From: Spirulinaceae cyanobacterium SM2_1_0
GTDB lineage: Bacteria > Cyanobacteriota > Cyanobacteriia > Cyanobacteriales > Spirulinaceae
Assembly (NCBI GenBank): GCA_012031265.1
Contig: JAAUTY010000020.1
Span: 1-64,000 of the forward strand
Direction: 5' to 3'
DNA: 64,000 bases
Notes under the pieces: model-generated
The model's database searches: none
The model's input: only the letters and a program-made list of their open reading frames with translations
Told to the model about the DNA's origin: nothing
Part shown: positions 1,664-30,380 of the stretch, piece after piece
Position numbering within the stretch: the stretch's first letter is position 1
Layout: every line of letters begins with the position of its first letter
Translations under genes and position numbers: made by a program

Positions 1664-2758
1664 ATGAGTCAGCAGTTTCGCGAATTACTTCAAAAAGTTG
1701 GCAATGGCGCGCATACCAAACAAAATTTGAGCCGTCAGGAAGCGGCGATCGCTGCCCGACACTTACTCGAGCAGGAGGCTACACCCGCTCAAATCGGTGC
1801 TTTTTTAATCGCGCATCGGATCAAGCGGCCGACGAGCGCGGAACTGGCTGGAATGCTGGACACCTACGCCGAACTGGGCCCGCAGGTTCCCGCGCTACCG
1901 GCGACTGAGCCGCCCGTGATTGTGATGAGCACTCCTTACGACGGGCGATCGCGCACTGCCCCCGTCACCCCCCTCTCGGCGCTGATCCTGGCGACCGCTG
2001 GCTTGCCCGTCCTCCTGCATGGCGGCGATTCGGCCCCGACCAAACATGGTCTGCCGCTGAATGACCTGCTCGTTGGTCTGGGGCTAGACTTTCGCACCCT
2101 CTCGCTGACCCAGCTCCAGACGGTCTTGACGACCAGCAAACTCGGCTTCGTCTACACGCCCCATCACTTTCCGCAGGCGGACGCGCTGATGACCTACCGC
2201 GAGGAGATCGGCAAACGACCGCCGCTCGCGACGCTGGAGCTGATCTGGCTGCCCTATGCTGGGCTTTGTCGCGCCGTCGCGGGCTATGTGCATCCACCCA
2301 CCGAGCCGCTGTTGCGACAGGCGCTCGCCCAGCGGGGGATCACCGATGTCGTGTTGGTGAAGGGGTTGGAGGGGAGCTGCGATCTGCCCCGCGCCCGCAC
2401 GGCGATCGCCACGGTGAGCCAGTCGCGCATCCCCGGGGTCGGTGACTATCTCAAACTCCACCCCCGCGACTACGGCTTCGCGGGTGAGGATCTGCCCAGT
2501 CTGCCGCTGCCAGAGTTGTTGACCCAGATGGAAGCTGTGCTCCGGGGTGAGGCAGTGGAGCTGCTACCCGCCGCGCTCTGGAATGCGGGCTTCTATCTCT
2601 GGCAGTTTGGCGGCGCGGCGAGCTTAGCGGCCGGGATCGATCAGGCGAAGACATGGTTGGCAGCGGGGCGCGTGGTTGAGCAGCGTCGGGAGATTCAGCA
2701 GGCGATCGCCGCTTGCCACGAACTTTCTAGAACGCCGCCACCTCACCACTCGCCTTGA
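1664..2758 (+). CDS. cnaT: CnaT-like anthranilate phosphoribosyltransferase homologue
   Basis: The protein has about 364 residues and the fold signature of the anthranilate phosphoribosyltransferase / glycosyltransferase family 3. It starts with a helical domain (residues 1-75, HLLEQEATPAQIGAFLIAHR) followed by the phosphoribosyl-binding domain with YDGRSRTAPVTPLSALILA and LLHGGDSAPTKHG. In Anabaena PCC 7120 a gene of this family beside ntcB, cnaT, is needed for expression of the nir operon; its biochemical activity is not established. Position straight after ntcB supports this reading over a tryptophan-pathway trpD. The ATG at 1664 is chosen over an upstream in-frame ATG at 1562 because it matches the family N-terminus. 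The 3' end overlaps the convergent CHAT gene by 16 bases. Confidence 0.75.
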   Translation: MSQQFRELLQKVGNGAHTKQNLSRQEAAIAARHLLEQEATPAQIGAFLIAHRIKRPTSAELAGMLDTYAELGPQVPALPATEPPVIVMSTPYDGRSRTAPVTPLSALILATAGLPVLLHGGDSAPTKHGLPLNDLLVGLGLDFRTLSLTQLQTVLTTSKLGFVYTPHHFPQADALMTYREEIGKRPPLATLELIWLPYAGLCRAVAGYVHPPTEPLLRQALAQRGITDVVLVKGLEGSCDLPRARTAIATVSQSRIPGVGDYLKLHPRDYGFAGEDLPSLPLPELLTQMEAVLRGEAVELLPAALWNAGFYLWQFGGAASLAAGIDQAKTWLAAGRVVEQRREIQQAIAACHELSRTPPPHHSP

Positions 2759-5448
2759 ACGGTGAAGGCGGCCCAATAGTAGGGCGATCGCCACTCTGGC
2801 TGCGACCACATCTGCAACTGTGCCGCCCGCATCGCCGCTGTCGGTGACTGACCCGCCGCCAGCAGTTGGCGATAGAAATCAGTCATCAGTTCTGCCGTCC
2901 CCTGATCATCGACATTCCACAGGCTCACCACCACGCGCTTGGCTCCGGCGTAGAGAAAACCGCGTGGTAACCCCACCGTGCCCTCACCGCGAATTAGTTC
3001 GCCCAAGCCCGTCTGACAAGCGCTGAGGACGACCAGTTCAGCGGGCAATTCGAGATTGAAAATGTCGTGCAGTCGTAGAAAGCCATTCTTAGGATTACCT
3101 TGCTCATCGACGAGCGAAAATGCCAGCCCTGAGAGTTCAGGACTGCTGCTGTTGAGTAGCCCGTGGGTGGCAAAGTGCAGAATGCGATAGTTGCGAAGTT
3201 GTGGGTCGAGGGCTAGTTCGCGACTGGCCTCACTGCCAAAGGCCTTCGTTGCCTGGGTCGCATCCACCAGATCGAGGATGCGATCGGCCTCCTGGCGCGT
3301 GAACGGGATGCGGTCAAACAGAACGCCTGACTCGCGCGCTGACCGCTCTAGCTCCGGGGGAAGACTGGGAACGGGGACTTGGCGGCTGATCCGCTCGTCC
3401 TTAACGCTGAAGATCGGGTCGGCGAGCACCGCCAGCGCGCGCGGGGCAGGCGGCCGATTGGCGATGTCGCGACGCAGCACTGCTAGCGTTGAGGCTGAGG
3501 GCAAGGTCAGCAACTCGTGGCCGGTGACCAGGGGGGCATAGAGGCGATCGCTCCCTTCTCCCGGAATCGCTAACAGCGAATCTTCGGTGCTGGTGGTGGG
3601 CGGATTGGGTCGGGTCAGGGCGGCGAACGGGATATAGTTGAGCGCGCCGTGGCTGACGATGATCAACCGCCGCTCGCCCAGTTGGTCAGCGACAGGGCCG
3701 AGTAACAGATCACTCAACTGCGTCGCCGACCGTCGAAAACCGACCGAAAGGCGGCTGTGTCGCGATCGCGCAATTTCCCGTCGTAGCCTCACCACCAGCG
3801 CTTGGATTGGCGCGCGACCGGGTAGCACAGCACTCAACAGTGAATCGGCATCGACGGCCCAGAGGTAGCTGTGCTCCTGACCCATGAAATATTCCAACAG
3901 CAAGGCGTCGCCATCGATCACTTGCGCCTGAATCTGTCCGACATCTAGGGGCTGCGGCTGCGTCAGGGCCGCATAGCGCGGACTCGTTGCCCGGATCTCG
4001 GCACGAACTTCTTGATACGCGGTGAGTAAGTCATCAATTTCTTGATTGATCGCCTCCGCCTGAGCGGGTTTGTGGGGGCGACTGAGGGTTTTGACTTTGC
4101 GCTGCTCAGCGGCGTCGAGTTGGGCGCGGAGTTGCTGTTCGCGCGCGAGCAGCTGGGCATCAACCCCGGTGCGAATGTCAGCATTGGCTTCGTTGAGCAG
4201 ATCGAGGAGCGATCGCGCCCGCGCCTGTTCGCTGACTTGCAGCGCCTGCGCGTCGTAACCCGCTTCCGAATCCTGCTCCTGCAACTCCATCAGCAGATCG
4301 ATGTAGAACTCGTAATAGTCCTGCTGGGTGGCGAAGAAGCGGCTGCGGAGGTCGAGGTCATCAATGTTGCCGCGCAGATCTTCGGCAATCTCAACAGCGC
4401 GGCTGATTTCCGCCAACGCCTGGGTGCGATCGCCCTGTTGTCGCAGCGAGCGGGCGAGTTGATAGCGGGTCAGCGCTTCTTTAGCGCGATCGCCCACCGC
4501 CTGCCGCAGTGCTAGCGCTTGTTCGTAGTACCCCTGCGCTTGGGTCAGATCCCCCTGCTCAGCGGCGGCGACTCCGAGGTTGCTGAGCGTGCTGGCTTCA
4601 CCCTGGCGATCGCCCACCTGCTGCCAGAGCGGTAGCGCCTGTTGATAATAAGTTTCGGCCTTACGAAATTCGCCCGCGTCGGCGGCGAGATAGCCGAGGT
4701 TGTTGAGGGTGCTGGCTTGCGGCCCGATTTTCTCGAGACTCGTCCAGAGGTCGAGGGCTTGCTGGTAGTGGGACTGGGCGCGGGGGCGATCGCCCTGCGT
4801 CGCAAAGACTTGACCGAGATTATTCAACGTCGCCGCCTGACCCTCGGCATTGCCTGCCGCCTGGGCGAGCGCCAGGGCTTGGCGGTAGTGGCTGAGGGCG
4901 CGATCCTGATCGCCCAGTTGCGCGAAGACGCGGCCGAGATTATTCAACGTCGTTGCCGCCCCCGTGCGCGACTCGACCTCATTCCAGAGCGGCAAAGCCT
5001 GATCGTAGTCATCGAGCGCCTGTTGATACTCGCCGCGTCGGGCGTGCAGGCGGCCGAGGGCGACGAGGGCGGTGGCTTCGGAGTGGCGATCGCCGAGCTC
5101 CCGGTAGAGTTGCCGCATTCGCTGGTAGCTGGCGAGGGCGGCCTCGGTGTCGCCGAGCGCCAGATAGGTCGGGCTGAGCCAGTAAAGCGTCAGGGCGAGT
5201 TGTTGGCGATCGCCGACTTGTTCCCAAAGCGGCAGGGCTTGCTCCCACTTGGCGATCGCGGCGCGCATCGCCGTGCCAGTTTGCTCGCTGTGCAGGGCGA
5301 GGCCCTCGCTGAAGAGGGCAGTAGCGGTGGTTGTGGGTTGGGCGATCGCTGGGATTGCCGTCAGTTGTGCCAGAGCAAAGCTGAGCGTAGCCAGCCCAGC
5401 GAGGCATAGAGAGCGAATTCGGCGGCGCATCATGAGGATATTCAGCAA
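2743..5448 (-). CDS. Secreted TPR-CHAT domain protein
   Basis: A protein of 901 residues. An N-terminal signal peptide ends near the AIAQP motif at about residue 37. Residues 40-350 are a row of about seven tetratricopeptide repeats of roughly 40 residues (for example ASTLNNLGYLAADAGEFRKA). A helical linker follows, then a caspase-like CHAT domain (about 590-901). The catalytic pair is intact: His762 in FATHG and Cys811 in SACQTG, with the typical SLWNVDD and PYYWAAF motifs near the end. CHAT proteins are caspase-family proteases; cyanobacteria have many exported TPR-CHAT proteins of unknown substrate. It is followed by no obvious partner, so a function beyond a likely protease is not supported. 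Confidence 0.9.
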   Translation of the reverse strand: MLNILMMRRRIRSLCLAGLATLSFALAQLTAIPAIAQPTTTATALFSEGLALHSEQTGTAMRAAIAKWEQALPLWEQVGDRQQLALTLYWLSPTYLALGDTEAALASYQRMRQLYRELGDRHSEATALVALGRLHARRGEYQQALDDYDQALPLWNEVESRTGAATTLNNLGRVFAQLGDQDRALSHYRQALALAQAAGNAEGQAATLNNLGQVFATQGDRPRAQSHYQQALDLWTSLEKIGPQASTLNNLGYLAADAGEFRKAETYYQQALPLWQQVGDRQGEASTLSNLGVAAAEQGDLTQAQGYYEQALALRQAVGDRAKEALTRYQLARSLRQQGDRTQALAEISRAVEIAEDLRGNIDDLDLRSRFFATQQDYYEFYIDLLMELQEQDSEAGYDAQALQVSEQARARSLLDLLNEANADIRTGVDAQLLAREQQLRAQLDAAEQRKVKTLSRPHKPAQAEAINQEIDDLLTAYQEVRAEIRATSPRYAALTQPQPLDVGQIQAQVIDGDALLLEYFMGQEHSYLWAVDADSLLSAVLPGRAPIQALVVRLRREIARSRHSRLSVGFRRSATQLSDLLLGPVADQLGERRLIIVSHGALNYIPFAALTRPNPPTTSTEDSLLAIPGEGSDRLYAPLVTGHELLTLPSASTLAVLRRDIANRPPAPRALAVLADPIFSVKDERISRQVPVPSLPPELERSARESGVLFDRIPFTRQEADRILDLVDATQATKAFGSEASRELALDPQLRNYRILHFATHGLLNSSSPELSGLAFSLVDEQGNPKNGFLRLHDIFNLELPAELVVLSACQTGLGELIRGEGTVGLPRGFLYAGAKRVVVSLWNVDDQGTAELMTDFYRQLLAAGQSPTAAMRAAQLQMWSQPEWRSPYYWAAFTVQGEW

Positions 5449-20633: not shown

Positions 20634-22037
<1,404 letters not shown>

Positions 22038-22144
22038 GGGAACTCCCTCCTCAAAATCAAGCGCGCCGTGACTCCAGACGCTCAATATTTGCCAGCATCT
22101 GCTCACTATAGCTTAACCCTACTGCCGCCAGGAACCGCTTGCCG

Positions 22145-22306
22145 CTACGGGCGCGATCGCCAATAGCGCCATAGCTTGAAGCTGCCGAAGCCACCGAGAA
22201 TCAGGAGATACAAGATCGCCAGCACTGGGATCGCCTGCAAGCGACTCGCCACAATCACGGTGGTGACGGCGACGATCCCACTACTTGTCCAGGCTCCTGA
22301 CCGCAT
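22145..22306 (-). CDS. Small two-helix membrane protein
   Basis: A 53-residue frame between leuC and the first 111-bp repeat. It has two hydrophobic stretches (GIVAVTTVIVASRL and IPVLAILYLLILGGFGSF) and ends with the basic tail KLWRYWRSRP, as in small membrane proteins. I do not recognise the family. The ATG lies only 9 bases from the end of the 111-bp repeat and no ribosome binding site is visible there, so the gene may have lost its 5' part or its leader to the insertion. Confidence 0.4.
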   Translation of the reverse strand: MRSGAWTSSGIVAVTTVIVASRLQAIPVLAILYLLILGGFGSFKLWRYWRSRP

Positions 22307-22315
22307 TGCTAAGGA

Positions 22316-22426
22316 CTAGTACCGCTACGCGGAATTTTGAGTTCTGAGTTTTGAGTTCTGAGTGCCTGCAATACGGGAATCTTGGGGATTTTGAATGGGC
22401 ATCTCATTTCCGCCGTCCTGTACTAG
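22316..22426 (+). repeat. 111-bp MITE-like element, copy 1
   Basis: Begins CTAGTACCGCTACGCGG and ends CCGTCCTGTACTAG. The ends form imperfect inverted repeats bounded by CTAG. At 22335-22362 it contains four tandem heptamers alternating TTTTGAG and TTCTGAG. It ends 6 bases from the stop codon of the TPR gene on the minus strand. Four more copies lie at 26441, 33876, 35425 and 38727. It carries no coding capacity. Confidence 0.9.
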
Positions 22427-22432
22427 CTGTCG

Positions 22433-23760
22433 CTACTGAAAGGGTTGTGGCTGCTGTGGTGACTGCTGTTGCTGTTCTTGTTGCTGTTCTTGTTGCTGGC
22501 GGAGTCGCTCGGCCTCAGCGAGTGCTGCTTCCTGAGCGGGGATCACAGTCTCGTTGAGAAAGGTGACAACTTCATCCGCTTTTTCCATATTGCGCTCACC
22601 GAGGTAGAGGCTGCGGGCTTGGCGCAAGACGGCGATCGCCGGTTCGTAGCGCTGCGTTTCATAAAAAGCATCGCCGAGGTTGTAGAAGGCGTCGGCAAAC
22701 ACCGGATCCAAACGGATCGCACTCTGATAGGCGACGATCGCCTCGTCGTAGAGACCCGTTCGTTGATAGGCAATGCCGAGGTTGTAGTAGTTGGTCGGCT
22801 CCTCAGGATCTAGCTCGATCGCCTTCGTCAAAGCGGCGATCGCCTGCTCATTATTCCCCGTGCGGGCAAGCACCGCTCCCAACTGTTGATAGGTCGTGAC
22901 ATTGTTAGCTTCCAGCTCGGCTGCCCGCGTAAAGCGTTCAGCCGCCGCCACAGGATCGTCAAGCTGACTGTAGACCAGACCCAATTGATACTGAGCCTGC
23001 GCGCTTTCGGGTTCGAGCCGTGCTGCCAATCCCAAGGCATCGCGCGCAGCGATCAGGTCACCCTGATCTGCATAGAGCACCCCCAGTTGATAATAAGCCG
23101 GGGCGAACTCCGGGTCTAGCTCAATCGCCTGCTCAAAGAGGTTGACCGCTTCCGCGCGCGCGCCCTCCTGCGCGACAATCAGGCCCAGGTTGTAGTAAGC
23201 CTGGACGTTATTAGGCTCGATCAATAGGGCCTGACGATAAGCCTCAGCCGCTTCGCGATCGCGCCCCAGTGAGTCGTAGGCCAGTGCCAAGTTGTAGTGA
23301 GCCGCCGCAAACTCGTCGTCAAGACTAGCGGCCCGCTGAAATGAGGTCACCGCCGATTGCGGTAGGCCCTGGCGGTAGAGGGCAACGCCGAGATTGTAGT
23401 GAGCCGCCGCCAAGTTGGGATCGAGAGCAATGGCTTGCTGATATTCTTGCGCTGCCTCATCGGGCTTGTCCTGCTGGAGCAGCGAGTTCCCCAGCAAATA
23501 GTAGCCCATCGCCATCAGCGGATCGATCTGGACAGCAGCACGCAATGCTCGCTCAGCGGCACGATAGTTCTGTTGCTCGTACTCGATCGCCCCTTTTTGG
23601 AAGAGGGCAGCCGCGTCAAGATCATTGGTATAGAGGCCGTCTAGAACTTGCTTGCCCTGCGGTAGTACGGGAAGCGTTGCCGCTTGGGCGAGTCGGCTCG
23701 CTGAAGCACCTACGAGGCGATCGCCAGTGCCAGACCCAACGGTTGAACCAGTTTCAGCAT
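22433..23760 (-). CDS. Exported TPR-repeat protein, reading frame broken once
   Basis: The main frame (to about 23,745) encodes about ten tetratricopeptide repeats of 34 residues (typical unit: AHYNLGVALYRQGLPQSAV) and ends in a Gln/Pro-rich tail. It has no start codon before the repeats. A good signal peptide start, MLKLVQPLGLALAIAS, begins at 23760 in a different frame and hits a stop at 23710-23712; the continuation VGASASRLAQAA, a plausible cleavage region, is in the TPR frame. One base of correction between about 23712 and 23745 joins them into a protein of about 440 residues. TPRs mediate protein binding; no specific role can be given. Confidence 0.75.
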
Positions 23761-24305
23761 AAAGCGAGGATCATAGAAAGGACGCATCTTTGCCCAGTTA
23801 ATCCAGAGCACGCGCCGGTGATGACGCGCCAGTTGCCGCCTATCTTAGCAGCCCGACCGCTGCGATCGACTCCGCCGAAATGCAGCATTATGTTGACTGC
23901 CTGCGGCGACCCGCCCCGACCCGCTTCGCCAGCATCCAGCCTTTACGCGAAAATCACTTGGCTTGGTTTCCAGAAGGTTACTACTCCGGAATCATGAAGG
24001 GCATGGTTTGCAACAGTCGGAAAGCAGAATGGACAGGGCGGCTGGCAAGTTTGCCAGACGTGTTCACTAACCACCTCGGTGCAGTAGCACCCGTTTGGGA
24101 ATTACCAGCGGGGGTCAGGCCCGCAAACCCTTGTCATAACCGGGAATTGCCGCTTATGCTGAAAGCGACTGCGCCGACTCGATGAATGGAAGGCAGCAGA
24201 GCAGGTCGGTTCTTTATGCCCATTATCGCCATTTTTCACGGGCTGCTATTGACAACAGAGCGGTCTTCAGGCAAAAAAACATAGCAGAGGTTATACACAG
24301 GGTCA
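23761..24305. other. Divergent intergenic region
   Basis: About 545 bases between the divergent TPR gene and the pseudo-caspase gene. Open frames on the plus strand (for example 23880-24185) have no ribosome binding site or recognisable sequence. Promoters for both flanking genes are expected here, but I cannot point to a distinct box. Confidence 0.5.
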
Positions 24306-26381
24306 ATGGCAAACTACAGCGCGATCGCAATTGGCATCAACCGCTATCAATTCATTCAACCCCTCAGCTATGCCCAGGCTGATGCCCAGGCGCTGCATTC
24401 CTTCTTGATCGAAGAAGCGGAGTTGCCCAAGAGCCAAGCCCTACTGCTCAGTGACGCTTCGCCCTGGCTCGACAACCAGTCCACCTATCCCACCGGCGAG
24501 TCGATCCGGCGCTGGTTGCAGCCGCCAGACGCACCGACGCCCAAACCCTTTCTCTGGTTCTTCTTCAGCGGCTACGCAGCCCACGTTGATGGTCAAGACT
24601 ACTTCATGCCCATCGATGCCAACCCGGCCGACATCCTTAGTACGGGCATTGCCGCCAGTGAGATCCTCGATTTATTGGCGCAACACGGGGCCGAAAATAT
24701 CGTGCTCTGCCTCGACATCAACCGCTCCCCGAATGCGATCGCCGGGGCGAATGTCGGCGCTGAGATTGTACAACTGGCCCAAGACCAGGGCTTCATCTGC
24801 ATCCTGTCCTGCCAGCTCGAGGAAACCTCCCACGAGTCAATGGCCTTAGGCCACGGGATGTTTGCGGTCGCGCTGCTAGAGGTGTTGCGCTATTATCGCC
24901 ACGAAGTCACCCTCGACCGCCTCGCCCGCTATCTGTGCGATCGCCTGCCTGAACTCAGTCAACACCACTGGCGACCGGTGCAAAATCCACTCATCCTCAT
25001 GCCTTCGCTAGAACTCGTCGACCGCTCACTGCTGCCGGTGGCAATGCCTGAAAGTCAGGACACGCCTGCGGTCGTGGAGACCCCTAGCCCGGTTGTCGAG
25101 TTGACCGCTGACCAGGAATCCACTCACAGCAACGGCAACAACCGCGGCAGTGCTACAGCGCTCGACGACCCTGGCAATGGTCACTCCGGCAGCACCTCGC
25201 TACAACTCCCGACTTTCAACAACCCCAGTGGCGAGGCCGAGCCGCCCGAACTGACCGGCGGCGTTGAGGACATTCGCGAAGACATCGCCCCCCCCATTCC
25301 GTCTGAGCCACCCGAATCCTCAAGCTCGCGCGGACGCTGGCTGCTCTGGAGCGGTCTGGCATTAGCATTGCTCTTGCTCGCAGGTTGGCTGGGGTCTCGC
25401 CGCCAAACCGCGCTCGTCGAAACCCCAGATCCGCCAGTCGTTGCCCCGGCACCGGACGCGGCTACCGAGTCACCGGTGGCACCAGATGCGGCGGCTCCGG
25501 CACCGGACACGACGGCTAGCCCAGCCCCTGATCCTGCTACGCTCGCACCAGAAACGGCGGTGAGTCCAGCAGTGGAAGACGGTGCAGCCCCTGCACCAGA
25601 AACGGCGGCGAGTCCTGCCCCGGATGCGGCAGCGCCGGGAACCGGGGTAGATCAAGGCGTGACTTCACCCACTACCCCCGCACCGGAAACGGCGGCGAGT
25701 CCCAGCCCGGATGCTCAGATTGCGGCCCCGCCGGCTACGACCGCACCTGCACTGGCTGCCCAGACACCAGCCGCCGTGACGCAAACTGAGGGGGCGAGTC
25801 GCGCGATTCTGGCACGAGCACGCACCTACATCCAAGCCAATCAGGCGACTGGTTTCAGCCGTGCTGTGGCTGAAGCACGCAAGATTCCGGCCGGTGCGCC
25901 GCTCTACGACGAAGCACAAGCTGATATTCAGCGTTGGAGCCAAGTCATTCTTGACATCGGTAAAGGTCGTGCCGCGCGAGGACAGTTTGGAGCGGCGATC
26001 GCCGCTGCCCAGTTGGTCTCTCCGGATCGCGGTGAACTTTACCAGGATGCCCAAGCGAGCGTCGCCCGTTGGCAACAGCAGGCACAGCAGCAGACGGTCA
26101 ACCTGAAAGTGCTCAGCGACGCGCGGCGCACGATCAACTACACGCAGGCTTCGTCCTACAACCAGGCGATCACGATGCTGGCAGCGATCCCGCCCGGTCA
26201 ACCTGGTTACCTCGAAGCGGAGTCCCTGCGGGAGCGCTGGAGCCGCCAAATCTATCTGATCGCTAACTCGCGCGCTGCTCAGGGCAATCTCGAGCAGGCG
26301 ATCGCCACCGCTCGACTCGTCCCAACGGGAACCTCCAATTACACCGATGCCCAGCAGGCGATCGCCCGCTGGCAGCAATGA
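24306..26381 (+). CDS. Pseudo-caspase (peptidase C14-like) with membrane anchor
   Basis: 691 residues. Residues 1-235 are a caspase-like p20 domain (AIAIGINRYQF, then FLWFFFSGYAAHVDGQDYFM). At the catalytic histidine position (canonical SGHG) there is Tyr90, and at the cysteine position (canonical DACHS) there is Asn139 in LDINRS, so proteolysis is not expected. A low-complexity linker precedes a single membrane helix at about 344-363. Next is a Pro/Ala-rich segment with repeated APETAASPAP-like units (370-490), then a helical C-terminal domain of about four repeats ending in ARWQQ. Catalytically altered orthocaspases of this kind are known in cyanobacteria; their role is unknown. It is followed by the 111-bp repeat copy 2. 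Confidence 0.85.
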   Translation: MANYSAIAIGINRYQFIQPLSYAQADAQALHSFLIEEAELPKSQALLLSDASPWLDNQSTYPTGESIRRWLQPPDAPTPKPFLWFFFSGYAAHVDGQDYFMPIDANPADILSTGIAASEILDLLAQHGAENIVLCLDINRSPNAIAGANVGAEIVQLAQDQGFICILSCQLEETSHESMALGHGMFAVALLEVLRYYRHEVTLDRLARYLCDRLPELSQHHWRPVQNPLILMPSLELVDRSLLPVAMPESQDTPAVVETPSPVVELTADQESTHSNGNNRGSATALDDPGNGHSGSTSLQLPTFNNPSGEAEPPELTGGVEDIREDIAPPIPSEPPESSSSRGRWLLWSGLALALLLLAGWLGSRRQTALVETPDPPVVAPAPDAATESPVAPDAAAPAPDTTASPAPDPATLAPETAVSPAVEDGAAPAPETAASPAPDAAAPGTGVDQGVTSPTTPAPETAASPSPDAQIAAPPATTAPALAAQTPAAVTQTEGASRAILARARTYIQANQATGFSRAVAEARKIPAGAPLYDEAQADIQRWSQVILDIGKGRAARGQFGAAIAAAQLVSPDRGELYQDAQASVARWQQQAQQQTVNLKVLSDARRTINYTQASSYNQAITMLAAIPPGQPGYLEAESLRERWSRQIYLIANSRAAQGNLEQAIATARLVPTGTSNYTDAQQAIARWQQ

Positions 26382-26440: not shown

Positions 26441-26551
26441 CTAGTACCGCTACGCGGAGTTTTGAGTTCTAAATTTTGAGTTCTGAGTGTCTACAATACT
26501 GGAATCCTGGAGATTTTGAATGGGCATCTCATTTCCGCCGCCTTGTACTAG
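26441..26551 (+). repeat. 111-bp MITE-like element, copy 2
   Basis: Starts CTAGTACCGCTACGCGGAG and ends CCGCCTTGTACTAG. The heptamer array is partly degenerate. Its last bases supply the TAG stop codon (26548-26550, minus strand) of the sigma-like downstream ORF, so the element sits directly on that gene's 3' end. Confidence 0.9.
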
Positions 26552-27276
26552 GAGGCGCGTTCGGCGCGCAAGCGTTCCAGGCAATCGCAGAGGCTGCGCG
26601 CGAATAAACTGCGCGGCGGCGGCTGGCGTTGCTTCACTTCGGCTTCACTCGCCGCTTCATTGATAATCTCCGTCAGCTCCGCAGCCAGTGCTTCCTGAAT
26701 AGTGCTGTATAACGCCTGCAAGCACTCGGCATCGCTGTAGGCTTGCGCCAGTTCGGTGACGCGATCACTCAGCAACTCTAGCGCATACTGGCTAATCGTC
26801 GCGCGCAACTGCTTCAGCTTCAGCAGACGGCTGACCTGATACTGCGCTTGCAGACCGATACTGGCGGCAATCTCGGTCATGTTCTCGCCGCGCACGTGGA
26901 AGCGGTAGAGCGCATCCAGCAACTGCGCCGCCCGCTGAGGTTGGCGACGGCAGCGTTCGCGGAGCGCCCGCTCACTCGCGATCGCGAGGCAGTCCCGAAA
27001 TAATTCGTGGTAGCGTTGCAAAAATTCCCGTTGCATCTGTCGCGTATCGTTCTCGCTGGCAGTGATCGCCCCCGCGTGCAGTTGCGGGTCATCCAGCGAT
27101 TCGGTCAGCGGTGACTTGTTCCGCCGTTGGACGCGATAAAGCCGCAACTGAGCCGCAAGCTCGCGCAATTTGCTAAGCGCCTGACTGGAACTCAAACTCT
27201 GCTGATGCTGTTGCCACAAATCTTCGCTGATACGCTGCAACTGATCCACATCAGGCGGCAGGCAACGACCGCTCAT
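26548..27276 (-). CDS. Sigma-70-like protein, C-terminal part (region 4-type HTH)
   Basis: 242 residues, basic and helical. YRFHVRGENMTEIAASIGL followed by QYQVSRLLKLKQLR resembles sigma region 4: a helix-turn-helix with a recognition helix rich in basic residues. The start ATG overlaps the stop of the upstream ORF (ATGA at 27273-27276). The start GRCLPPDVDQLQRI reads like the middle of a larger protein, so either the pair is two coupled subunits or one sigma-like gene with a one-base frame error. The stop codon lies inside repeat copy 2, so the native C-terminus may differ. Confidence 0.65.
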   Translation of the reverse strand: MSGRCLPPDVDQLQRISEDLWQQHQQSLSSSQALSKLRELAAQLRLYRVQRRNKSPLTESLDDPQLHAGAITASENDTRQMQREFLQRYHELFRDCLAIASERALRERCRRQPQRAAQLLDALYRFHVRGENMTEIAASIGLQAQYQVSRLLKLKQLRATISQYALELLSDRVTELAQAYSDAECLQALYSTIQEALAAELTEIINEAASEAEVKQRQPPPRSLFARSLCDCLERLRAERAS

Positions 27277-27938
27277 CCCGGCTGCGAGCGATCGCGCCGG
27301 TAGACGGCATGATAACTGCTCAACAACGCCTGATCACTCTCCACCTCCGCAGCCGAGAGCGCCAAAATGGTGGTGAGACGATGGGGCGGCGTGTCATTGA
27401 GGATTGCCCAGTCACTGATCAGATAAACGCCATAACTGAGCAGGCAATCGTTGAGTTCTCGGTGCTGCCCGACGAGGCGACTGATCCAAGCACTGAGGCT
27501 GCCCCGTTCTGGCTCATAGGTTCGCAGGATCTCAGCCGCCAGGGGCACATGACAGCGATCGCGCTGCTCCGACTCGGCCTCTACCAACGGTCGTAGTGAA
27601 GTTGTCAGGGCAACATCTGTCAACACCAACGGCAACAAATCGCGTGACCCAAAACCGTAAGCCTTGCCAAAGCGCTCAGCCAACTGCCAGCAAGCTTGGG
27701 CGATGTGGTTGGAAATATAGCACCGCAAGCAGAGTTCAGCCGCACTCGGTTGCGGCTGCTCCGGATCAGTCTGCCAAGTATGATAAAGCTGGCGGGTGAT
27801 CGCGGTGTCGCTGAGCGCCAGCGGCGCAAAATGAGTGGTGAAGAACTGTCGAGCCGTGGCGATCTCCTGGCGTTGACTGCCCCGCTCGACATTGAGCACC
27901 ACAAACTGCCAGTAGAAAGCGCGATCGCGTTGATTCAT
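27273..27938 (-). CDS. Sigma-70-like protein, N-terminal part (region 2-like)
   Basis: 221 residues. After a helical start it contains AAEILRTYEPERGSLSAWISRLVGQHRELNDCLLSYGVYLISDWAIL, which resembles the sigma region 2 pattern (Y/F-x-P-x-RGSLxxWxxR) seen in ECF-like factors of cyanobacteria. It ends QALLSSYHAVYRRDRSQPG. The following ORF carries the region 4-like half. I infer an alternative sigma factor or a sigma-derived regulator; no promoter target or anti-sigma gene can be named. The convergent neighbour is the pseudo-caspase gene. Confidence 0.6.
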   Translation of the reverse strand: MNQRDRAFYWQFVVLNVERGSQRQEIATARQFFTTHFAPLALSDTAITRQLYHTWQTDPEQPQPSAAELCLRCYISNHIAQACWQLAERFGKAYGFGSRDLLPLVLTDVALTTSLRPLVEAESEQRDRCHVPLAAEILRTYEPERGSLSAWISRLVGQHRELNDCLLSYGVYLISDWAILNDTPPHRLTTILALSAAEVESDQALLSSYHAVYRRDRSQPG

Positions 27939-28223
27939 GATGCCCTGACTGACGGGTTGGGCGGGAAAGATCCCGTCTCTTTATTAGCTCCCATTGAGTA
28001 GACTTATGCAAGTCCAATCCGGCACTTCACCGCCATTTCAGATCAAGGCAATACCATAGTTCAGTGTCGCGAACCACCGATACTCCCTTACAGCTCCAGC
28101 ACCAAGTCATTGGGTTGCCCGCAATCCGGCTGCCTGAAGAGTGAGACTCAACCATGTAGAAGCGGACTTGGCTATGGTGGGGGGCAGGTTCCTGTTGATA
28201 ATCCAGCTTGAGATCGATCGCGA
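27939..28223. other. Intergenic region upstream of the sigma-like gene
   Basis: I see no gene here. It should contain the promoter of the sigma-like pair, since that gene starts at 27938 on the minus strand. Confidence 0.45.
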
Positions 28224-28349
28224 CTATTGGTCAAGGGAGGCGGCTTGGGTCTGGAGTTCCGGGATGAGCGCGGCGTGGGCGAGGCGCGGTAGGCTCAGCG
28301 TCAAGGCAAGGATGATGGCATAGGTTGTCGGACGGGAGGCTGGCGGCAT
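28224..28349 (-). CDS. Small predicted secreted peptide
   Basis: A 41-codon frame with a clear signal peptide: positively charged start, hydrophobic core TYAIILALTLSL and an AHA-like cleavage site, then a short tail ALIPELQTQAASLDQ. AGGA lies about 10 bases before the ATG at 28349. I do not recognise the family; the mature part is only about 15 residues. It could also be the remnant of a longer gene. Confidence 0.4.
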   Translation of the reverse strand: MPPASRPTTYAIILALTLSLPRLAHAALIPELQTQAASLDQ

Positions 28350-28734
28350 GATGGCATTTCCTGGAGGGCGGTTCGATTAGCTGGACTAATTCATCGAGCG
28401 CTGGAAGCCTCGTCGCTAGGATAGCCCCAAAAACACACTGTTTTTTTGGATGATTGCCCTGCGATTACGAATGCTTACAGTCGCAAAATGCCGTCAAAGT
28501 CCTGAAAAGGCTTGAGTAGCTAGGATTTCAGCGCTTTGAGTGGATTTCGGAAGCGGCGGGGCGATCGCGCTCCCCGGCGTTATCACTCCTGGTTATCACG
28601 GTAAAAATCAGGGATCAGATCGCGAATTTGGCTACTTTTTCGGTGTAAGCACTGAACTTACTCCGCACAATTACTGAGTCGTTCACGACATTTTTCAGCC
28701 AACGGCGATCGCCATCCAAGTCATGTTCAGTGAC
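28350..28734. other. AT-richer intergenic region
   Basis: About 385 bases between the small peptide gene and the PEP-CTERM terminator. I see no coding frame with support and no clear structured RNA. Confidence 0.4.
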
Positions 28735-28772
28735 AAAAAAGCGGGGCAGCCTCTGGTTCATGACCGCCCCGC
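28735..28772 (-). terminator. Rho-independent terminator of the PEP-CTERM gene
   Basis: Reading the minus strand, GCGGGGC and GCCCCGC pair around an 18-base loop and are followed by six T residues (28735-28740). It lies 46 bases beyond the stop codon at 28818. Confidence 0.85.
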
Positions 28773-28817
28773 TATAACCATGTCGAAACTCAGCGTGAGG
28801 AAACAGAAGGTTGCAGC

Positions 28818-29768
28818 CTACGCGCGACGCTTACGAGCGCCGAGCATGCCCACACCCAAGAGCGCCAGCGCTGCTAGAGCCGTCGGTTCCGGGACTTCTT
28901 CTTCCGCCGGAGGCACCGCCGCGAAGCTGCCACTAGTGCCCATGATGTCGTTGGCGCACTCTGCCATCACATGCGCCATCCAGTTCAGTTCGCCAGCGGG
29001 CAGCAGGGAACGCGCAAAGCTCACCGCGTAGGTCTGCGTGCCCAGCGCCGGACTGTTGAGACCCGCCGCAGAGGCCGCGCCAGTGAAGTCCAGACCCATA
29101 GCACCCAGGGTCAAGGCATCGGTGGTCACATTGACATCACCCAGCTTCGTACCGGAGCCAGCTTGCACGACGCTCTCGCCGTGTTGGCCCAGGTAACTCA
29201 TGGCAGCACTATTGCTCAAGCCGTCGATATACTCGAAGCTACCGCCCTTGCTGTTGACGTAATTCTGGTAGTCGCTGTAGCTCTGCCAGCCGTTGTTGAC
29301 GTTGGTGACATCACTACCAACCACATTGCTGAACAAGCCAGTGCCGCTGAGGCCGGAGTCATTGCTCTTTGCGAAGCGCACGGCTAGCAGACTCTCAGTA
29401 CCCTCAACTTCCGTGAAGGATTTTGTGGGATCGAGATTGATGAACAAGTCACCAATACCAATGTTTTTGTCCTGAGCACCGTTGCTATACCAGCCATCAA
29501 TGTTGAGGTTGGTGTTGAAGGCGAAGGTGATGGTGTCAGCCTCGAGATCTTCGAGCACCGCCATGCCGAAGAATTCGTAATCACTCTGGTAACCCACGCT
29601 GTGTCTGCCGTCACCGCCATTTTGGTTGCGGTTGCCGGTACCGTCCGCGAAGGAGTCCCAGGAATAGTTCCAGCCCGCTGCTTGGGCTTGGGGCGCAGCT
29701 ACAGCCCAAGCACAAGCTAAGGCCGCTGTTCCCACGCAAATTTTGCCGAAAGTGGTTCGCTTCATCAT
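28818..29768 (-). CDS. PEP-CTERM surface protein
   Basis: 316 residues from the paired ATG codons at 29768/29765, preceded by AGGGGAAAG. An N-terminal signal peptide (MMKRTTFGKICVG..., cleavage after AQA near residue 33) leads to a Gly/Asn/Asp-rich, beta-type body with little lysine. The C-terminus has the sorting signal: VPEPTALAALALL, a hydrophobic helix, and a basic tail ARKRRA. Exosortase enzymes cut at PEP and anchor or release such proteins at the surface. The stretch WMAHVMAECANDIMG is also seen in some cyanobacterial exosortase substrates. The exosortase gene is not in the window. The frame is open upstream to 29942. Confidence 0.88.
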   Translation of the reverse strand: MMKRTTFGKICVGTAALACAWAVAAPQAQAAGWNYSWDSFADGTGNRNQNGGDGRHSVGYQSDYEFFGMAVLEDLEADTITFAFNTNLNIDGWYSNGAQDKNIGIGDLFINLDPTKSFTEVEGTESLLAVRFAKSNDSGLSGTGLFSNVVGSDVTNVNNGWQSYSDYQNYVNSKGGSFEYIDGLSNSAAMSYLGQHGESVVQAGSGTKLGDVNVTTDALTLGAMGLDFTGAASAAGLNSPALGTQTYAVSFARSLLPAGELNWMAHVMAECANDIMGTSGSFAAVPPAEEEVPEPTALAALALLGVGMLGARKRRA

Positions 29769-30380
29769 TCTTTCCCCTAGCATCTGTAAAGTTTTGTTCG
29801 TGCAAAATTCAACTTGCCTGAGTGTTGCGATCGCGGCAAACTCGCCATGTATCCAACCCAAAATCCGAATCCTGAATCGGCAAGCTGAAGTGCTGTAGAT
29901 GACGATCCCTTGCCCTGTTGATCCCAATTTAAGCCAGCTCACTGAGATTTTCCAGGTTATTCAGTGGCTCTCATCGAATCTTCATCTCTGGCTCAGCGAG
30001 CATAAAGTTCTGTCGAGAAAGCAGCGAAATTTTTTAGCGTCGATGAGCATGGTCGTCCCAGCATGGCAATGATTAACCATACGATATTGGGATCAAAATC
30101 CAGTTTTAGTAAGGGTTTCAGCCCAAGCTACTGAAAATCAAATTGTTCATTGATTCTGGGCTTTGGGTGCAAATTACTAATTGCTCTTGCGGATATTTAT
30201 GCGTCAACAATCGGGGCATGGTGTTGATTTTCGTAGAAACACGCAATCATTATCCGGGCGAGTGCTGACTGTTCAGAGATTTCCACAGCAATGCACCGCT
30301 GAACTGCCAGTTTTTACGCAACAGCCGACGCATGATGATCCGTCGAACCGGGCAACGGGGCCGGGTCAACCGCTCCTAAA
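29769..30380. other. Intergenic region between divergent PEP-CTERM and birA
   Basis: About 610 bases with lower GC than the flanking genes. Open frames here (for example 30181-30384) have no support. It should hold the promoters of both neighbours; I cannot identify operators. Confidence 0.5.

Follow-up and report, generated by a model that had tools for sequence, protein, structure and literature searches.

A conserved membrane-anchored YN pseudo-orthocaspase with a helical C-terminal repeat and an exported neighbour in cyanobacteria

The gene at 24306-26381 of the window, the 64,000-nucleotide stretch of Spirulinaceae cyanobacterium SM2_1_0 DNA analysed here, encodes a member of the published cyanobacterial YN pseudo-orthocaspases (PMC6426788, PMC8283722). 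In this protein, a caspase p20 domain with Tyr and Asn at the catalytic His and Cys positions is joined through a membrane helix to a C-terminal domain. Relative to these two studies, the all-helical C-terminal repeat, forms of the protein without p20, a divergently encoded exported neighbour and a wider distribution are new. We consider it probable, with some reserve, that the YN pseudo-orthocaspase is a non-proteolytic membrane-spanning scaffold or receptor. The pseudo-caspase identity proposed in an earlier sequence-only reading of this DNA holds, and we add the placement in the YN clade, which was missing there.

Domain layout and membership of the YN group

The reading frame is open from an ATG at 24306 to a TGA at 26381 on the forward strand and encodes 691 amino acids (Table 1). 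The PF00656 profile matches residues 6-216 with an E value of 6.8e-10 and a score of 39.5 bits, where the cut-off is 21.4. As to a separate p10 domain, whose absence marks an orthocaspase rather than a metacaspase, the Pfam search showed nothing besides the caspase domain above its cut-off. The AlphaFold2 model, built on 49 aligned orthologues, is confident at residues 1-245, in a helix at 342-365 and at residues 495-691, and disordered in the intervening parts of the region past residue 250. Structure prediction, named in the sequence-only reading as part of its check, yielded a confident p20 model with pLDDT mostly 90-98. A Foldseek search of this model against the PDB returned MALT1 and metacaspases as the best matches (best E 1.5e-9), and a search of the PDB by sequence, with this protein alone as query, gave no match. 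Three further features had been read from the letters, and all of them are borne out: membrane attachment by one helix, a long Pro/Ala stretch (residues 366-490, 22% Pro and 30% Ala) and a repeated C-terminal domain, which we find to be a two-fold repeat. The Pro/Ala/Thr linker varies from 37 to 180 amino acids among orthologues. Since p20 and C-terminal domain occur together in 81 orthologues, of which 80 exceed the hydropathy threshold set for the membrane helix (>1.6), this architecture is not a product of chance. A search for intrinsic terminators and promoters around the reading frame gave nothing decisive.

Table 1. Features of the YN pseudo-orthocaspase gene, in window coordinates
Feature	Position	Strand	Evidence
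Whole gene, YN pseudo-orthocaspase, 691 aa	24306..26381	+	81 orthologues
Caspase p20 domain, residues 6-216	24321..24953	+	PF00656, AlphaFold2, Foldseek
Asp26, matching the Asp in the CxND basic-residue pocket of metacaspases	24381..24383	+	Invariant in 81 orthologues; T. brucei MCA2 alignment
Tyr90 at the catalytic His position	24573..24575 (TAC)	+	Orthologue counts; SGHG of metacaspases
Asp137-Ile-Asn139-Arg140, Asn139 at the catalytic Cys position	24714..24725	+	D137/N139/R140 in 81/81; Cys-bearing relatives have LDACR
First disordered linker, Pro/Ser/Glu-rich, residues 233-341	25002..25328	+	pLDDT <50 over most; composition
Single predicted transmembrane helix, residues 342-365	25329..25400	+	AlphaFold2 helix; hydropathy >1.6 in 80/81 orthologues
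Linker rich in Pro, Ala and Thr, containing imperfect DNA repeats (25495-25714)	25401..25787	+	pLDDT <50; composition
C-terminal domain, predicted two-fold repeat of helical hairpins, residues 495-691	25788..26378	+	AlphaFold2

Klemencic et al. defined the YN clade in 2019 from 49 sequences (PMC6426788). In a 2021 survey, YN proteins made up ~31% of 133 pseudo-variants, about a third of the cyanobacterial pseudo-orthocaspases covered, and HN and CN variants were also listed (PMC8283722). That survey counted 37 pseudo-orthocaspases with a transmembrane helix. The window protein shares with the published YN proteins the Tyr/Asn dyad, the LDxNR motif, a conserved Trp shortly ahead of the Tyr (W84) and the acidic pocket, and the hosts are likewise large filamentous cyanobacteria. 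It departs from the published descriptions by its conserved C-terminal repeat domain, by the p20-less forms and by the exported neighbour; YS and YN proteins were described as having no identifiable C-terminal domain (PMC6426788), as were most pseudo-orthocaspases in the later survey (PMC8283722). We found no functional study of a YN pseudo-orthocaspase in the literature searched.

The distribution differs as well. YN proteins were reported to be confined to multicellular nitrogen fixers (PMC6426788). Among genomes that are at least 95% complete, in which we called the fused protein at a profile cut-off of E 1e-100 set in this analysis, 23 of the 50 with the fused protein lack nifH. Therefore, the reported restriction does not hold, and nitrogen fixation as a published functional link is no longer a requirement. 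The association is still positive, with nifH in 27/50 genomes with the fused protein and 15/194 without it, in counts that ignore shared ancestry. In the family of the window, whose relatives at the matching contigs are Spirulina species and the filamentous cyanobacterium ESFC-1, all 13 genomes encode the YN protein (in one genome, a fragment located at the end of a contig) and four encode nifH. The window's own genome (5.03 Mb in 149 contigs, 99.98% complete) contains nifH.

Two other groups of cyanobacterial p20 proteins are useful for comparison. The YS pseudo-orthocaspases with a Tat signal, such as L001, also have a pseudo p20, but this protein is exported whole via Tat and has a different C-terminus, with no detectable match to the C-terminal domain. 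The HC orthocaspases of the LDACR type (L113, L125, L189) are the closest catalytically intact p20 relatives and have Arg140 in common with the YN proteins. Unlike them, they retain His and Cys, and the C-terminal domain was not detected in them.

Conservation of the altered catalytic site

In a profile alignment with Cys-bearing cyanobacterial relatives, which read FSGHG and LDACR at these places, Tyr90 stands exactly in the column of the His and Asn139 (codon AAC, 24720-24722) in that of the Cys. The p20 profile also puts Tyr90 on the His of SGHG in the solved T. brucei MCA2 and Candida metacaspase 1, in an alignment that stops before the Cys. The replacement of both catalytic residues within a retained fold, as first read, thus agrees with the PF00656 match and with the alignment to Cys-bearing relatives. 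A His/Cys pair recovered through another alignment had been named as the result that would overturn this reading. We looked for such a pair and rejected it, as the profile alignment is unambiguous and C135, C165, C169, C211 and H93 form no dyad. In relatives, position 93 is mostly V, S or N, and position 135 is mostly L, V or A.

The altered site is not drifting. Asn139 is present in all 81 orthologues, as are Asp137 and Arg140, and the full YN dyad occurs in 75; residue 90 is Y in 75, C in 4, W in 1 and H in 1. In total, 21 p20 positions are invariant in these orthologues, D26 and D137 among them. The mean column entropy of the p20 within the YN clade is 1.48 bits (1.78 for the C-terminal domain). 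Set against this mean, the invariance of N139, R140 and D137 indicates that the site is under selection, frozen rather than decaying. In metacaspases, two Asp residues (MCA2 numbering) hold the basic residue of the substrate (PMC6426788). Judging from the alignment, D26 and D137 correspond to this pair, D26 being equivalent to MCA2 Asp95, and the acids of the basic-residue pocket are kept in the YN pseudo-orthocaspase.

Because Cys139 occurs neither in the 81 orthologues nor in the deeper fused relatives that we read, Asn is fixed at this position in the orthologues, and no alternative dyad was found, action of the YN p20 without proteolysis is well supported by the alignments. The sequence-only reading had stated that the protein must act in this way. 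Its non-proteolytic part probably stands, and its "must" was too strong for a property that we infer.

The C-terminal domain and the exported neighbour

A p20 tree of 54 rows, from which the YS Tat proteins were left out, places 42 proteins fused to the membrane helix and C-terminal domain in a single clade, separate from the HC rows with support of 98/97. No catalytic Cys is found in the fused rows read. Deeper fused members have N, S, R, H, Q or I in place of the Cys, and the Tyr is mostly retained. As the fused rows read lack the Cys and the C-terminal domain was not detected in the Cys-bearing HC relatives read, the gain of the helix and C-terminal domain accompanies the loss of catalysis.

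Modelled alone, the C-terminal domain consists of nine helices with a mean AlphaFold2 pLDDT of 96.4. It matches no Pfam family above cut-off, and a Foldseek search of the model against the PDB gave nothing at E 0.001 or better, only weak helical-repeat matches. According to the model, it is a helical-hairpin repeat of its own kind. It shares helical hairpins and weak structural and profile similarity with TPR and other helical-hairpin repeat proteins (BamD, NlpI, YfgM and designed repeats), but the TM-scores are about 0.2-0.3. We rejected an assignment as TPR, with no TPR Pfam match above cut-off and no Foldseek match at E 0.001.

The domain also exists apart from the p20. It stands behind a short N-terminal helix in three proteins (L141, L142, L144), and a further one is likewise p20-less (L143). 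A multi-repeat paralogue family carries it too, with one member in the genome of the window (L146). These paralogues (L146 at G000:C80:15500-21500, and L154) are 580-780 amino acids long and contain many copies of the same hairpin repeat; their type occurs in most cyanobacterial genomes searched and has no Pfam family above cut-off.

The gene next upstream of the YN gene encodes an exported protein in 45 of 80 named loci (42 of the 72 with at least 1.5 kb upstream). It is always divergent, with a median of 201 bp between the two starts, and the arrangement spans six orders. The neighbour has 130-370 amino acids, a predicted N-terminal export signal, recognised by visual inspection, and in many cases a tail rich in Pro, Ala and Thr. 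Its conserved domain reads RRAEAVARAAAQRSFD ... SRxxWRxRPDPQxWATYF, and the family (alignment A4; upstream in L033-L112) has no significant match in Pfam or NCBIfam. Within the family of the window, all 13 genomes have a homologue, which adjoins the YN gene in nine (in one, the p20 fragment). In the other four, the window's own genome among them, the two genes are not side by side. The copy in the window's genome sits on a different contig (G000:C126:16828-17220; L192:3287-3703), beside a hybrid histidine kinase gene. Across 244 genomes, a homologue is present in 40/50 with the fused protein and 16/194 without it, in counts that are not corrected for ancestry and whose weak matches include paralogues. 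Strong matches (>150 bits, counted by hand) occur in 32 genomes, 31 of which have the fused protein.

In the one exception, G080, the exported neighbour lies divergently beside a membrane-anchored protein that has the C-terminal domain but no p20 (L175: 1884-2867 - and 3362-4621 +). The same molybdopterin oxidoreductase gene lies beyond, so that the synteny matches that of YN loci minus the caspase domain. It is thus the C-terminal part, and not the p20, with which this locus associates the neighbour. A conserved outer domain together with an exported neighbour offers the first concrete partner to test.

Other genes recur near YN loci. A Mo-nitro_C (PF06967) gene lies convergently downstream in 26 loci (for example, L050:2837-3214 - and L049:4884-5486 -), and a molybdopterin oxidoreductase (PF00174) gene lies upstream in 31 loci. 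Neither was accepted as an operon partner: the former is convergent and seen only in Nostocales-type loci, and the latter belongs to a more widely shared synteny with no evident link.

Possible function and genomic surroundings

The proposed scaffold or receptor would work across the membrane. The p20 likely lies in the cytoplasm, because the protein has no N-terminal signal; this feature, together with the single helix and the long spacers, makes a p20 inside and a C-terminal domain outside the likely arrangement. The charges flanking the helix are balanced (2.17 versus 2.16 Lys/Arg), so that the positive-inside rule does not fix its orientation. Inside, the p20 may bind a ligand, either a protein or a peptide, that it leaves uncleaved. 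The C-terminal domain would reside in the periplasm or thylakoid lumen and bind a partner there, for which the divergently encoded exported protein is the best candidate. Binding on one side of the membrane might then be relayed to the opposite side or tethered to it. The sensor or scaffold role offered by the sequence-only reading is therefore reasonable, with indirect support from the conserved exported neighbour and from the C-terminal domain kept without p20, short of proof.

Four other functions can be considered. The protein might be a ligand-gated factor that promotes death or acts in oxidative stress, a role put forward for SyOC, a pseudo-orthocaspase of Synechocystis whose deletion increased H2O2 tolerance (PMC7889975). 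SyOC, however, belongs to the YG type and not to the YN group, and we hold this function to be unlikely here. The p20 could also be a passive remnant, with only the membrane helix and C-terminal domain of importance. The existence of the C-terminal domain without p20 and the drift of the dyad positions in deep branches fit such a remnant, which is nevertheless improbable given that the p20 of the YN clade, with its invariant positions and lower entropy, shows no less conservation than the C-terminal domain.

Alternatively, the dead p20 might act as a decoy or allosteric regulator of intact orthocaspases, dimerising with active p20s or titrating substrates from them, as cFLIP-L does for caspase-8. 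Like T. brucei MCA4, a pseudo-metacaspase, cFLIP-L has a biological function (as cited in PMC6426788), and both work with active partners. The retained acidic pocket would suit a decoy, and many YN-bearing relatives also have HC orthocaspases. In the genome of the window, however, PF00656 finds only two caspase domains, that of the YN protein and that of L001 (G000:C54), a 760-amino-acid Tat-signal YS pseudo-orthocaspase. This genome, 99.98% complete, thus has no HC orthocaspase and encodes no active partner, and G005 and G009 contain the same pair of YN and YS proteins only. Therefore, regulation of an intact orthocaspase cannot be the general function, and such genomes separate the YN protein from the regulation of cell-death proteases. 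Functions independent of active counterparts have also been argued for previously (PMC6426788). A decoy function, quite improbable overall, could survive only as an added role where YN and HC proteins co-occur. It is very unlikely that the protein has acquired a different chemistry, as a hydrolase or by processing itself, through a new active site made up of Tyr90 and Asn139 (with Arg140 and Asp137) that could, for instance, support self-cleavage at Asn. The invariance of N139, R140 and D137 is unusual for a dead site, but Cys, Trp or His replaces Tyr90 within the clade, position 139 is occupied by S, R, H, Q or I in deeper fused relatives, and the Asn is explicable as a structural hydrogen-bonder.

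Beyond the non-proteolytic scaffold or receptor, a more specific picture is tentative and, in our estimate, rather doubtful. The dead p20 might read a basic peptide inside while the outer helical domain holds the exported protein. The two genes might then form a widespread, undescribed envelope or thylakoid system, mostly of large filamentous cyanobacteria, with the p20-less form in G080 as its core.

In the window itself, the genes on either side of the YN gene (20634-24185 and 26548-29942) are not found again next to orthologues, and the families shared nearby are large regulator families only. Two overlapping reading frames of 242 and 221 amino acids (26548-27938, reverse strand) are convergent with the YN gene; they have no Pfam or NCBIfam match and no homologues beside other YN genes. 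Further downstream, a 374-amino-acid reading frame (28818-29942, reverse strand) ends in a PEP-CTERM-like sorting motif (PF07589, E 0.0063, under the curated cut-off). The CHAT protein with TPRs noted earlier at 2743 is also found (2743-5448, reverse strand); with a CHAT match at E 4.8e-70 and intact FATHG and SACQTG motifs, it is a predicted protease.
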